A DNA stretch of 64,000 bases, taken from assembly GCF_013409785.1 (NCBI RefSeq), contig NZ_JACCBV010000001.1, positions 3,534,001 through 3,598,000 of the forward strand. The letters run 5' to 3'. The DNA comes from Microbacterium immunditiarum. Lineage in GTDB: Bacteria; Actinomycetota; Actinomycetes; Actinomycetales; Microbacteriaceae. Position 1 is the stretch's first letter. The number at the start of each line of letters is the position of its first letter. The notes under the pieces are model-generated. The model was given only the letters and a program-made list of their open reading frames with translations. It had not been told where the DNA came from and ran no database searches. Below, piece after piece: positions 46,194 to 50,683 of the stretch. Both the position numbers and the translations under genes were made by a program.

Positions 46194-47039
46194 CTACTCC
46201 TGATCGCGCCGCGCACGCGTCCGCTCGGCGCGCGCGGCGAGTTGGTCGTCGGCCGGGTATCCCACCTCGGTGAGCGTGAGCCCCCGCGCGGCGAGGACGG
46301 TGAAGTCGCTCGTGCGCTCGCCCTCGTCGCGGATCGACTCTAGGTCGTCGATGTCGAGGCGGCCCTGGCCGACTGCGACGCATCCGCCGACCAGCGCGCG
46401 CACCATGCTGTGGCAGAACGCGTCGGCCTTCACGTTCGCGACGAGCACGCCGTCGTGGTCGCGATGCCAGTCGAACTCGAGCAGCGTGCGGATCGTCGTC
46501 GCCTCCTCGCGCGGCTTGCAGTATGCGGCGAAGTCGTGGAGGCCGACAAGCGAGCGGGCGGCGGCGTCCATCGCGTCGACGTCGAGCTCGGCGCGAACCG
46601 TCGTCGTGCGGTGCCGCTCGAGGGGGTCGTAGCCGGTCTTCTGGTCGGCGATGCGGTACGAGTAGCGGCGCCACACCGCCGAGAACCGGGCGTCGAACCC
46701 TTCGGGCGGGACGGATGCGCGGTGCACCGTCACATCCGAGTACGCGCCGAGCACACCGCGCAGGCGCCCCGCGAGGACCGCGACGGGGTCGCCGCCGGCG
46801 CGGCGGACCGATCGCGCGGTGAGCCGTTGCGCCTGCTCGTCGTCGAGGTCGAGGTGCGCCACCTGTCCGCTCGCGTGGACGCCGGCATCCGTCCTCCCCG
46901 CCACCACGAGCCTCGGCTCCCCGCCCAGCACGCGCGCGATCGCGTCTTCAAGCGTGCCCTGCACTGTCCGCAGGCCGGGCTGGCGCGCCCACCCGCGGAA
47001 GTGCGTGCCGTCGTAGGCGAGATCGAGCCGGATGCGCAC
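46194..47039 (-). CDS. truA: tRNA pseudouridine(38-40) synthase TruA
   Basis: A 281-residue pseudouridine synthase. The catalytic Asp is in AGRTDAGVHASGQVAHL; AYDGTHFRGWARQPG at the N-terminus and FDARFSAVWRRYSYRI and KADAFCHSMVRALVG later are typical. In many actinobacteria truA directly follows rplQ; here seven kilobases of other genes separate them. Start is a GTG with TAGGCT 6 nt upstream, so it has its own leaderless promoter, which fits its loss of contact with the ribosomal operon. Confidence 0.95.
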   Translation of the reverse strand: MRIRLDLAYDGTHFRGWARQPGLRTVQGTLEDAIARVLGGEPRLVVAGRTDAGVHASGQVAHLDLDDEQAQRLTARSVRRAGGDPVAVLAGRLRGVLGAYSDVTVHRASVPPEGFDARFSAVWRRYSYRIADQKTGYDPLERHRTTTVRAELDVDAMDAAARSLVGLHDFAAYCKPREEATTIRTLLEFDWHRDHDGVLVANVKADAFCHSMVRALVGGCVAVGQGRLDIDDLESIRDEGERTSDFTVLAARGLTLTEVGYPADDQLAARAERTRARRDQE

Positions 47040-47067: not shown

Positions 47068-48501
47068 TCACCCCAGCACGCGACGCGCGAGCGGCAGCCT
47101 CTCGCCGACGGCGGTGAGCGCCGTGCGCGCATGGTGCACGCGGTTCTCGCTCTCGCGGACGAACTCGCGCGCCACGACCGGATGCGTGCGCACGATGTCG
47201 TCGAGCACCTGCACCGGGAGCACGACGACGTCGACCTCGCTCGAGGCGACCGCGCGCGAGATCGTCTGCGTTCGCGAGAGAGCGGTGATGCCGATGGGGT
47301 CGCCGGGCGCGAGCTGCGCGACCTGCACGAAGCCGTGCTCCTCGGTCGGGATGCCGAGCGTCACGGTGCCCTCGAGGATGAACCGCGTCTCGTTCGGGAT
47401 CATGCCCGGCCGCAGGATCGACTCGCCCGAGCAGTACCGCTCGAGCCGTGCGCGCCCGGCCAGGGCATCCGTCTCGCCCGGCTTGAGGCTCAGCGCCGGC
47501 GCGATCTTGCGCAGCGCGTCCTGCAGGCGCCCGGGCGTGTGCCACACATCGGTGATGTCGCCGTCGAGGTGCAGCCCGGCGCGGCGCGCGGCGTACCAGA
47601 CGCGCGTGTTGAAGGCGTTCAGGACCGCGAACCGATCCCCCGGGCTGCGCAGCGGGATCGCCACCTCGAAGCGCGCGCCCGGCAGGGCCGCGGCGTACGG
47701 CTCGGCGTCCTCCGACACGAGCGGGATGTCGCGGGCGACCTGCACGAGCAGCTCGCGCACGCGGCCGGGCGGATCGTCCGTCGAGAAGAGCAGCTCCGTT
47801 CCGGCCTCGTACGGCGACGGGCTGCGCGAGAGGTTCACGAACGACGAGCCGGCGAGCTCGGCGGTCGGGATCACGAGGATCCCGTTCGCGGTGTCCAGAT
47901 GCACCGCCCGCCAGTTGACCTCGATGATCTGGCCGCGCTCGTCGCCCACCTCGATCCAGTCGCCGAGCTCGAACGGCGACTCGAAGATGAGGAACAGGCC
48001 CGACACGACCGAGCCGACCGCGTGCTGCAGCGCGAGGCCGACCACGATCGACGTGACGCCGAGCGCGGCGAACACGCCCGCGACATCCGCGTCCCACACC
48101 CACCAGAACACGGCGGCGATGCCGAGCACGATGAACACGAACCGGATGAGGTCGCTGAAGATCTTCGGGAAGCGATCGCGCCACGACCCCTTCTCGGCGC
48201 GGTGGAACACGAGGTGGTTGATCGCATTGATCGTCACGACGATCACGAGCAGGCCGAAGATCGTCCAGATGACGCGCGGCCACGTGCCCTCGCCCTGCCA
48301 CGCGCCGGGCTGGCTGATGAGCACGAGCACTCCCGCGACCGGCACGAGGTAGTTCCGCACCATGAGCACGATGGGGGCGGCGCGGCTGTTCCGGCGCGCG
48401 AGCGCGTTGTGGAACTCCGTCAGCAGGATGAGCGCGAGCGGCAGCCCCACCGAGACGATGACGGCGGGCCAGAACCACGGCTGCGAGACGATGTCGGCCA
48501 C
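47068..48501 (-). CDS. MscS-type channel with C-terminal cyclic-nucleotide-binding domain
   Basis: A 477-residue channel protein. Four or so TM helices in residues 8-160 lead to the MscS pore helix and beta domain (ALGVTSIVVGLALQHAVGSV, then LIFESPFELGDWIEVGDERG and VIPTAELAGSSFVNLSRS). Residues about 345-455 are a cNMP-binding domain: the phosphate-binding cassette region reads GDPIGITALSRTQTISRAVA, keeping the Arg. This is the plan of bacterial cyclic-nucleotide-gated (bCNG) channels, in which cAMP or cGMP opens an MscS-like pore. The GTG start lies 7 nt after the stop of a nucleotide cyclase gene, with GAGG between, so sensor, messenger and channel may be one system. Confidence 0.92.
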   Translation of the reverse strand: MADIVSQPWFWPAVIVSVGLPLALILLTEFHNALARRNSRAAPIVLMVRNYLVPVAGVLVLISQPGAWQGEGTWPRVIWTIFGLLVIVVTINAINHLVFHRAEKGSWRDRFPKIFSDLIRFVFIVLGIAAVFWWVWDADVAGVFAALGVTSIVVGLALQHAVGSVVSGLFLIFESPFELGDWIEVGDERGQIIEVNWRAVHLDTANGILVIPTAELAGSSFVNLSRSPSPYEAGTELLFSTDDPPGRVRELLVQVARDIPLVSEDAEPYAAALPGARFEVAIPLRSPGDRFAVLNAFNTRVWYAARRAGLHLDGDITDVWHTPGRLQDALRKIAPALSLKPGETDALAGRARLERYCSGESILRPGMIPNETRFILEGTVTLGIPTEEHGFVQVAQLAPGDPIGITALSRTQTISRAVASSEVDVVVLPVQVLDDIVRTHPVVAREFVRESENRVHHARTALTAVGERLPLARRVLG

Positions 48502-48508
48502 GGATGCC

Positions 48509-50683
48509 TCACCTCACCGCCGCCGCCGAGGCGGTATCGATGCGCCACACCCGCTGTGTGCCGCTCTGCGTCTCGATCTCGCCCGCCGGCTCGAGCGCGA
48601 TCGCGTCGGGCAGCCGGTCGGCGACGCGCTGCGTGACGTAGATGCCCGGCTCGGACGAGTCGCCCTGCACGCGGAACGCGAGGTTCACCGCGTCGCCCCA
48701 CATGTCGTACGCGACCCGCGCACGCCCGATGAGGCCGCTGGTGACCTTGCCGGAGTCGAGGCCGGCGCGCAGCCGCAGGTCGACGCCCTGCTGCGCCGAG
48801 TAGCGCTCGAGGATCGCGTCGAGCTCGAGCGCGAACTCGACCGCGCGGCGCGCGTTGTCGACGCGCGGGTTCACGAGGCCGCAGCTCGCGAGGTAGCTCT
48901 GGCGCGTCGTGCGCACGCGCTCGATGCCGTGCCGCTCGGCCGCGTCGTCGAACGAGCGGATGAGGTCGTTCAGACGCGCGACCGCGTCCTCGGACGTCAT
49001 CGACAGCGAGAGCTCTTCGAACCCCACGATGTCGGCGAACACGACCGTCACGTCGTCGCTGTCCTGCGTGATGGCCTCGTCGCCGAGCTTGTAGCGGCTG
49101 GCCATGCCCTCGGGCATGAACGACAGAATGAGCTCCTCGTTCGCCCGCTCCTGCTCCTCGATGAGGTGGGACTTGACCTGCAGGCTGCGGCTCATGTTGT
49201 TGAACGCATCGGCGACGTCGGCGAGCTCGTCGCTCGAGCCGGCGTCGACCTGCACTCCCTCGTCGCCTGCGGCGATGCGCTGCGCCGCGACCTTGAGACG
49301 GCGCAGGGGCCGCACGAACACCTGGGCGAGTACGAGCGAGAGCAGGCAGACGAAGATGATCATCCCTGCCGTCGACAGGATGAGGTTTCGCGTGAAGTCC
49401 TCCACCGGAACCATCGCCTCCCGCGACGACTGCTGCGCCACGATCGCCCAGTTGAGGCCGTCGACGCCGAGCGGCGCGTACGCGGTGAGGCTCTCGCGAC
49501 CGAGATAGTCGCGTTCGAGCAGCGTTCCGCGATCCCCCGCGAACGCACGCGTGACGGCGTCGCTCGAGATCTGCTGCTGCAAGAGCGTGTTGCCGTTGCG
49601 CACGCTCAGGGCGGCCGCGGCGGGCGAGAGCCCTGCCTCGACGGCGAGCGACTCGTACCGGTCGGGATCGTCCTGCAGCTGGCGCGAGATCGATCGCATG
49701 AGCCCGTCGCGGCCGACCAAGTACGTCTCGCCCGTGGCCCCGAGGCCGTTGACCGCGAACTCCCCGTCGACCGTCATGACGCTGTTGACGCGTTCGATCG
49801 GCAGCTCGATCGCGAGGGCGCCGATGACCTCGCCGTCGTCGGCGATCGGGGTCACCGCCCACCCGGCCGGGTTGCCGAGGCTCGGGCTGTACGACGCGAA
49901 GTCCGCGATCACGACATCGCCGACGATGTTGCGGGTCATCGCCTCGCGGTACGCGTCGGCGAGGTTCGAGAGCCGGTACGGCCCCGTGAGCAGGTTCGTG
50001 CCGAGGTCGACGCCCTTGAAGGCGGTGTAGATGACGTTTCCCTCCGTGTCGACCATGAGGACGTCCTCGAAGTCCTGCAGGTTCGTCATCTCGCGGTAAT
50101 AGTCGTGATACCGCGAGTGCGCCGCCGACCACGCGCTGCCGTCGCCCGCGTCGTCCGCCCGGACGGCGTCCTCCCAGCTGTCGTACGGGATGACGTAGTG
50201 GTACTGCAGATAGCGCTGCGCCTCGCTGCGCGGCGAGAACGCCGACCCGTCGACGTCCTCGCCGGTCGCCTCGGCGAGGGCCGACGCGAACGTGTCGCGA
50301 TAGTAGGAGTCGAGCTCAGCGGATGCCTCTGAGTCGAGCCGCTGCTGCTGGAGCTCGGCGAACGCCGCCGTGAACGCCCGCGTGGCCTGGCGGCTCGTCT
50401 CGTTGAGCGCCCCCAGGCGCACGGTGTTCTCGATCGAGTGGAAGAGCTGCGCCACCTCGCGGCTGCGGTTCTCGCGGATCTCGACGAGCTTCTCGTACGC
50501 GATCGCCCGCAGCGCCTCGGTGCCGTTGACGTAGCCGATGATGCCGACGACGATGCTCGACAGAACGCTCACCGACAGGAGCATGATCAGCAGCACCGAG
50601 TAGATCGACAGGCCGGCGCGCCGCCGCATCCGCGGCGTGCCCACCCATCCGGCACCCGCAGCGCTCTGACCCGGCTCGGCCAT
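48509..50683 (-). CDS. Membrane-bound receptor-type adenylate/guanylate cyclase (Cache-HAMP-class III), atypical active site
   Basis: A 724-residue receptor. TM1 (about 28-50), a large extracytoplasmic Cache-like sensor (about 60-420, GEVIGALAIELP and YAPLGVDGLNWAIVAQ), TM2 (about 430-452), HAMP (452-500) and a class III cyclase domain (545-700). In the cyclase, Asp551 (FADIVGF) and the Asn/Arg of WGDAVNLAFR are kept, but the second metal Asp of the KxxGD motif is Gln595 (RTTRQSYLASCGL). Catalysis may be weak, altered or lost. The ATG at 50681-50683 follows GAGGAAG at good spacing; GTG 50692 is too close to it. The next gene is the cNMP-binding MscS channel. Confidence 0.9.
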   Translation of the reverse strand: MAEPGQSAAGAGWVGTPRMRRRAGLSIYSVLLIMLLSVSVLSSIVVGIIGYVNGTEALRAIAYEKLVEIRENRSREVAQLFHSIENTVRLGALNETSRQATRAFTAAFAELQQQRLDSEASAELDSYYRDTFASALAEATGEDVDGSAFSPRSEAQRYLQYHYVIPYDSWEDAVRADDAGDGSAWSAAHSRYHDYYREMTNLQDFEDVLMVDTEGNVIYTAFKGVDLGTNLLTGPYRLSNLADAYREAMTRNIVGDVVIADFASYSPSLGNPAGWAVTPIADDGEVIGALAIELPIERVNSVMTVDGEFAVNGLGATGETYLVGRDGLMRSISRQLQDDPDRYESLAVEAGLSPAAAALSVRNGNTLLQQQISSDAVTRAFAGDRGTLLERDYLGRESLTAYAPLGVDGLNWAIVAQQSSREAMVPVEDFTRNLILSTAGMIIFVCLLSLVLAQVFVRPLRRLKVAAQRIAAGDEGVQVDAGSSDELADVADAFNNMSRSLQVKSHLIEEQERANEELILSFMPEGMASRYKLGDEAITQDSDDVTVVFADIVGFEELSLSMTSEDAVARLNDLIRSFDDAAERHGIERVRTTRQSYLASCGLVNPRVDNARRAVEFALELDAILERYSAQQGVDLRLRAGLDSGKVTSGLIGRARVAYDMWGDAVNLAFRVQGDSSEPGIYVTQRVADRLPDAIALEPAGEIETQSGTQRVWRIDTASAAAVR

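Follow-up and report, generated by a model that had tools for sequence, protein, structure and literature searches.

When a gene for an outside-sensing receptor cyclase lies directly before a gene for a channel with a cyclic nucleotide-binding domain (CNBD), do the two proteins communicate through a cyclic nucleotide? This question is raised by a gene pair in a 64,000-nucleotide stretch of the Microbacterium immunditiarum genome (NCBI RefSeq assembly GCF_013409785.1, contig NZ_JACCBV010000001.1, positions 3,534,001 to 3,598,000), referred to here as the window. The initial annotation had described a Cache-HAMP cyclase followed after 7 bp by an MscS channel with a cyclic nucleoside monophosphate (cNMP) domain, and had proposed that ligand, messenger and channel form a closed circuit. 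The pair is real, and its coupling is tighter than that annotation could show. The proposed messenger, however, is doubtful, judging from the residues at both of its ends. Both open reading frames were confirmed on the minus strand, with the cyclase at 48509-50683 and the channel at 47068-48501; the 7 bp spacer between the cyclase stop codon and the GTG start codon of the channel occupies 48502-48508. The parts of the pair are as follows.

48509..50683, minus strand: receptor with a class III cyclase homology domain (CHD), 724 aa, in the order transmembrane segment (TM), Cache-like ectodomain, TM, HAMP, CHD
49424..50506, minus strand: extracytoplasmic Cache-like sensor region, residues ~60-420, from a sub-cut-off dCache_1 match and the secondary structure of the model
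49178..49330, minus strand: HAMP domain, residues 452-502, Pfam 51.1 bits (cut-off 25)
48560..49066, minus strand: CHD, residues 540-708, apparently catalytically degenerate, from the Pfam match and residue states
47068..48501, minus strand: MscS-type channel with a C-terminal CNBD-fold domain, 477 aa, GTG start, from Pfam and models
47812..48084, minus strand: residues 140-230, covering the MscS pore helix TM3 and the beta domain, with the top conservation among the segments compared, from alignment and the ratio of nonsynonymous to synonymous change (pN/pS)
47182..47442, minus strand: CNBD-fold domain, Pfam match at residues 354-440

The CHD gave a Guanylate_cyc match of 121.3 bits (cut-off 21.9), and the channel matched MS_channel_2nd with 62.6 bits (cut-off 20.2) and cNMP_binding with 34.9 bits (cut-off 27.5). 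The dCache_1 match of the cyclase fell below its threshold, with 30.5 bits against a cut-off of 45 (E 3.3e-7). The AlphaFold2 model of the cyclase resembles class III cyclase domains, Rv1625c among them. That of the channel resembles MscS, and its C-terminal domain resembles the CNBDs of the M. loti channel, HCN, PKA and CRP. The mean predicted local distance difference test score was 80.8 for each protein, with values below 50 in stretches such as channel residues 152-163 and cyclase residues 506-538 and 651-659. Coordinates, Pfam and fold matches thus agree on the architecture that was first described.

How closely are the two genes tied to each other? Among 249 genomes drawn from the same family, apparently Microbacteriaceae, the cyclase was found in 34 (E 1e-40) and the channel in the identical 34 (E 1e-25). 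The two genes were adjacent by coordinates in 34/34, which is far beyond chance. The pair is spread over 18 of the 85 genera in this draw and is patchy even within genera; in the genus of the window it is present in G000, G106 and G215 and absent from G164. This patchiness within genera implies that both genes were gained or lost in concert more than once. In a draw of 396 genomes from the phylum, the cyclase matched in 19 and the channel in 16, and all 16 carried a cyclase beside the channel; the draws share some genomes, and 4 of these 16 also belong to the family draw. Two of the three extra genomes (G572 and G578) gave short matches to ordinary cyclase domains with no channel, and the third (G685) is fragmented, part of a channel lying at the edge of a contig. 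A draw of 297 genomes from the order contained the cyclase in 16, at 17 places, with the channel at all 17 loci. A genome scan with a single window protein gave two loci, one of them related over just 61 residues. The co-occurrence in other genomes that the initial annotation had asked about is therefore borne out.

The arrangement of the genes is equally constant. The channel was on the same locus in 65 of the 66 paired-type cyclase loci examined, and the exception (L069) stops at a contig edge. The two genes share a strand in all 58 mainstream loci, with estimated gaps of -8 to 11 bp and one of 32 bp; 39 of the 58 overlap and one abuts. Flanking genes differ in the five genomes examined (two neighbours each), being amylase/esterase, aldehyde dehydrogenase/NAD synthase, CBS enzyme/ABC transporter, radical SAM/LepA and TruA/acyltransferase, the last of these in the window.

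Next, could the receptor make a cyclic nucleotide? The catalytic-domain chains of Rv1625c served as the reference for residue positions, and passages of one report describe roles for its Lys296, Asp365, Asp256, Asp300 and Arg376 (PMC4174876). The corresponding positions of the window cyclase are listed here.

49031..49033, minus strand: Asp551, the first metal ligand, with an acid (D or E) conserved here in 57/58
48899..48913, minus strand: Arg591 (substrate-Lys position), Arg594 (Gly position) and Gln595 (metal-2 Asp position), from alignment to Rv1625c
48671..48706, minus strand: positions for base recognition (Asp660) and for the transition state (Asn667 and Arg671), from the homologue alignment

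One of the two metal Asp residues is present (Asp551), and Gln595 stands at the position of the second. The substrate pair is Lys/Asp in adenylate cyclases and Glu/Cys in guanylate cyclases; the window has Arg591/Asp660. The transition-state Asn and Arg are both found in the window. Over the 58 mainstream paired loci, the Asn667 position is N in 26 and S in 24, with others in the rest, and the Arg671 position is R in 40 and Q in 13, again with others in the rest. The metal-2 Asp is absent in 56/58. Its position holds E 13, Q 11, N 11, G 10, S 7, R 3, D 2 and other 1, and in conservation this column ranks at the 4th percentile. Kept over the same loci are Asp660 (58/58), Arg591 (57/58), the metal-1 acid (57/58) and a basic residue at 594 (53/58). 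No paired cyclase carried the complete set D, D, N, R (0/63 scorable at all four catalytic positions; L059, L062 and L069 were unscorable at one or more), and L023 has both Asp without the Arg. Arg591, Arg594 and Gln595 are invariant in the best 120 of 1124 homologues, 107 of which have the motif VRTTRQSY. Of the best 120 of 2557 homologues of a mycobacterial member, 119 carry Asn and 1 carries Asp at metal 2, and Gln replaces the catalytic Arg in 114. These residue states suggest that the receptor probably makes no cyclic AMP (cAMP) or cyclic GMP (cGMP) at a meaningful rate.

Some lineages carry more than one degenerate cyclase. Cyclase-channel-cyclase triples occur in deeper lineages (f45 and f55), and three triples each count as two loci with a single channel. 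For L059/L066, L060/L067 and L068/L061, the observed residues allow no complete site, either within one cyclase or mixed from both, at ~30% identity, where the alignment is less sure. Two deep actinobacterial lineages have the channel between two different degenerate receptor cyclases (L108, 5199-10932; L109, 4977-10740), and such a triple is a possible obligate heteromer. Also, contig C2 of genome G508 holds two copies of the pair (L036 and L049) ~84 kb apart with differing active-site signatures, one of the Arg-Gln type and the other, which has Glu at metal 1, of the Arg-Gly type.

Unpaired cyclases offer a comparison. The whole catalytic set is present in the unpaired L063 and L064 from the phylum draw. 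Unpaired rhizobial Cache-HAMP-cyclases share the architecture over 91% of the query at 33-35% identity. Unlike the paired receptors, they have the complete set (4/4 examined, out of 19 plasmid records with a query coverage of 80% or more) and no channel nearby, since tblastn (E up to 1) found no channel relative on the 8-12 kb around the four cyclases, within 3-5 kb of them. These plasmid cyclases of Sinorhizobium, Ensifer and Pararhizobium (L174, L175, L180 and L181) are a natural catalytic comparison for the pair. In four Mycobacterium genomes, 30 of the 63 cyclase matches were examined, which took in nearly all of the best-scoring matches; 4 of the 30 are the paired ones, and the other 33 matches are mostly lower-scoring. 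The other mycobacterial cyclases, in 29 aligned rows with two genes counted twice, had both metal Asp in 24/24 scorable rows and the whole set in 17/29.

Is the CHD then simply decaying? pN/pS values were pooled over 11 close locus comparisons, with some loci used twice. They were 0.091 for the CHD, 0.197 for the ectodomain, 0.104 for HAMP, 0.052 for TM3-beta, 0.177 for the C-terminal part of MscS and 0.166 for the CNBD, and the omega of the CHD was 0.00-0.11 over the 11 comparisons. The CHD is thus under strong purifying selection and not decaying. Base recognition and the fold are kept while catalysis is released and, therefore, the pattern looks like that of a pseudoenzyme. In a CHD tree of 47 rows, 34 mainstream paired rows form one group (98/98) and six full-set rows another (90/78); this tree was rooted at the midpoint, and the placement of the deep rows is unsure owing to their long branches.

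The other end of the proposed circuit is the pocket of the channel. A Glu and an Arg in the phosphate-binding cassette are a mark of cNMP binding. The cassette of the window channel is as follows.

47245..47292, minus strand: phosphate-binding-cassette region, residues 404-419, with Ile405 (Glu position), Thr413 (Arg position) and Arg410, from alignment

Among the 58 mainstream channels, the canonical Glu was found in 1 and the Arg in 0. Other residues of the pocket are kept, namely Gly404 (57/58), Ala419 (57/58) and Arg410 (52/58). By alignment, the pocket argues against canonical cAMP binding. This evidence is weaker than that from the cyclase because, by our reading, four unpaired channels are also without the Arg. 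These channels (three from Rhizobiaceae and one from Caballeronia, on plasmids; L176-L179) have the Glu in 3/4 and the Arg in 0/4, and no cyclase domain was found within 3 kb of them. Given the four, some annotated bacterial cyclic nucleotide-gated (bCNG)-type channels may not bind cNMPs as usual. The Arg also reads as absent from one CRP-like protein (L115) of a pair-bearing genome. An alignment shift that hides the pocket Arg was considered: Arg410 (52/58) and Arg416 (15/65 loci) are near, but neither lies at the distance from the conserved Ala419 that is canonical for this Arg. A trypanosome-type nucleoside pocket was not specifically supported, as its marker Glu falls at Ala407, which is Ala in 116 of the best 120 homologues.

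Other proteins of the host could in principle complete the circuit. In the window genome the single PF00211 match is the paired cyclase, and this match is unique in 35/39 same-family genomes with the pair. Therefore, most same-family hosts have no other member of the family to supply or complete class III activity. Rescue through a heterodimer with another cyclase is unlikely for most of these hosts on the same count, in which other cyclase classes were not searched for. Class III was the only cyclase class found in the actinobacterial genomes of 2004, according to a portion of a survey (PMC2447327). On the receiving side, the window genome has two PF00027 matches, the channel and a CNBD fused to a thioredoxin-reductase-like flavoprotein (L002, G000:C1:1599157-1599423), and no further CNBD protein, CRP-type regulators included, was found at E 1e-3. 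At the same threshold, the channel is the only PF00027 match in 19/34 family genomes. The uniqueness of the PF00211 match and the tight gene coupling both favor the view of a dedicated coupled cyclase.

We propose that the pair is an obligate two-gene membrane unit, in which the channel would be co-translated with the receptor. The Cache-HAMP receptor would sense something outside the cell, and its cytoplasmic class III domain would be a pseudo-cyclase, with the fold and base-recognition residues kept and catalysis lost. The receptor would act on the cytoplasmic part of the channel, either the CNBD-fold domain or the vestibule, most likely by direct contact, and the pseudo-cyclase is perhaps itself gated by a bound nucleotide. 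The pairing, the residue losses throughout the clade, the selection on the CHD and, in most same-family hosts, the lack of a second class III cyclase are observed; that the receptor is inactive and that coupling runs through contact is inferred. The chances seem about even that the receptor pseudo-cyclase controls the MscS channel without cAMP or cGMP, most likely by contact. A more specific model is offered tentatively, as one that could well be wrong: the outside-sensing pseudo-cyclase would gate a mechanosensitive-type channel by contact, with the cyclase fold as a ligand-driven conformational switch and the CNBD as the docking site.

Several observations weigh against this proposal. The metal-1 acid is kept in 57/58 loci, metal 2 is still Glu in 13/58 and Asp in 2/58, and the window retains Asn667 and Arg671. 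Thus, some members might bind metal and turn over slowly, and residual or unusual cyclase activity is possible. The loss of the pocket Arg is not special to the pair, as the unpaired channels show by our reading. Some Arg is carried at 411-416 by 16/58 channels, where a shifted Arg is possible, and Arg410 (52/58) could bind phosphate in a new way. Nine Mycobacterium genomes have 14 to 25 PF00211 matches each, which could feed the channel. Degeneracy is not unique to the pair there either, since Rv1359 is noted as a degenerate mycobacterial cyclase in passages of PMC3961136. Lack of a metal Asp thus also occurs outside the paired clade, within which it is nearly universal. Finally, it is by elimination that we infer direct contact.

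How do other explanations compare? The circuit of the initial annotation, in which the receptor makes cAMP or cGMP that binds the channel CNBD and opens the channel, agrees with the domain architecture, the gene coupling and a CNBD fold near cAMP- and cGMP-bound structures. The kept metal-1 acid and Asp660, with Asn667 and Arg671 in the window, also fit. However, with the metal-2 Asp gone in 56/58 (Gln595 in the window), a complete set in 0/63, the change of Lys to Arg, the loss of the pocket Glu and Arg, and 35/39 same-family genomes lacking another PF00211 protein as a messenger source, a cyclic nucleotide link between receptor and channel seems unlikely. The main rival to our proposal is an altered messenger, where the degenerate site (Arg591, Arg594 and a single acid) would make or release an unusual nucleotide that is read by a reshaped CNBD pocket with Arg410. 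Both ends are changed in the same pairs, and what has been retained includes base recognition, the metal-1 acid (57/58), a basic side chain at 594 (53/58) and Arg410 (52/58). Precedents for a change of CNBD ligand are given in parts of two sources, with nucleosides in trypanosomatid PKA (PMC10959531) and cyclic CMP and cyclic UMP (cCMP/cUMP) in Pycsar (PMC11224242). The Asn in 26/58, the Arg in 40/58 and the nearly free metal-2 column are nevertheless hard to square with conserved catalysis, which leaves the altered messenger as a lesser possibility.

Another explanation is that the CHD is a sensor of nucleotide (ATP/ADP) or of dimer state for other targets, and that the channel is merely co-expressed and gated by tension alone. 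Among the segments compared, constraint is strongest on the MscS pore and beta domain (pN/pS 0.052), and the titles of two papers describe bCNG channels as mechanosensitive. The exact co-occurrence over 18 genera and the phylum draw, and the retention of a CNBD-fold domain on the channel, make this explanation distinctly unlikely. The genes could also be decaying pseudogenes or an annotation artefact, as the lost catalytic residues and the stop codons flagged in matched stretches of some relatives might suggest. However, 12/12 flagged cyclase loci that were checked end normally, with the stop 0-3 residues past the alignment end and none inside. Together with the purifying selection on the CHD and the motif VRTTRQSY in 107 of the best 120 homologues, these normal gene ends leave a negligible probability, and we take the idea as refuted.

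The same gene pair is present in genomes of a genus that appears to be Mycobacterium, and by homology we take the window pair to be the probable counterpart of Mycobacterium tuberculosis Rv2435c/Rv2434c. In excerpts of the literature, Rv2435c is described as a double-Cache adenylate cyclase (PMC4822843) and a member of the mammalian-type cyclase group (PMC3961136), and it is treated as an adenylate cyclase in PMC3961136, PMC4822843 and PMC3938503 alike. A portion of the 2004 survey names both Rv2435c and Rv2434c (PMC2447327; doi 10.1002/cfg.349), and that survey may already report that they are adjacent or inactive. Searches of the open-licence literature turned up nothing on point, whether on the pair or on inactive cyclases of class III.

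Comparison with known systems shows what is particular to the pair. The receptor has the CHD fold and Pfam match of a catalytic class III cyclase. The channel, like bCNG channels, has the MscS pore and beta domain plus a C-terminal CNBD fold; unlike them, the paired channels adjoin a receptor pseudo-cyclase and are without the canonical pocket Glu and Arg (Ile405 and Thr413 in the window). The two-gene layout of a cyclase and a CNBD effector is shared with Pycsar, whereas the window pair has a receptor ectodomain, an MscS pore and no complete catalytic set. Pycsar identity was rejected because the PADLOC matches were weak (PycC 34 bits, TIR effector 16.3 bits, PycTIR 14.1 bits) and the incomplete set does not fit the active pyrimidine cyclase of Pycsar. 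The trypanosomatid PKA regulatory subunit also has the phosphate-binding Arg of its CNBD replaced by a polar residue, and it binds purine nucleosides, according to parts of PMC10959531. T. cruzi structures of this protein were among the fold matches, whereas its nucleoside-site Glu aligns with Ala407 here in our alignment.

Past the channel, a TruA-like pseudouridine synthase (window 46194-47039) begins after 28 bp on the same strand and, thus, may share its transcript in the window. Four other genomes have other neighbors in this place.

Receptor cyclases are assumed to signal via cyclic nucleotides, and here the catalytic machinery is incomplete. An actinobacterial clade ties such a receptor cyclase to one channel over long evolutionary times. 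The pair is, therefore, a clean and testable case of a cyclase domain that may work without catalysis, and of a bacterial ion channel that may be under the control of an external signal. It also cautions against counting such genes, mycobacterial relatives included, as adenylate cyclases.

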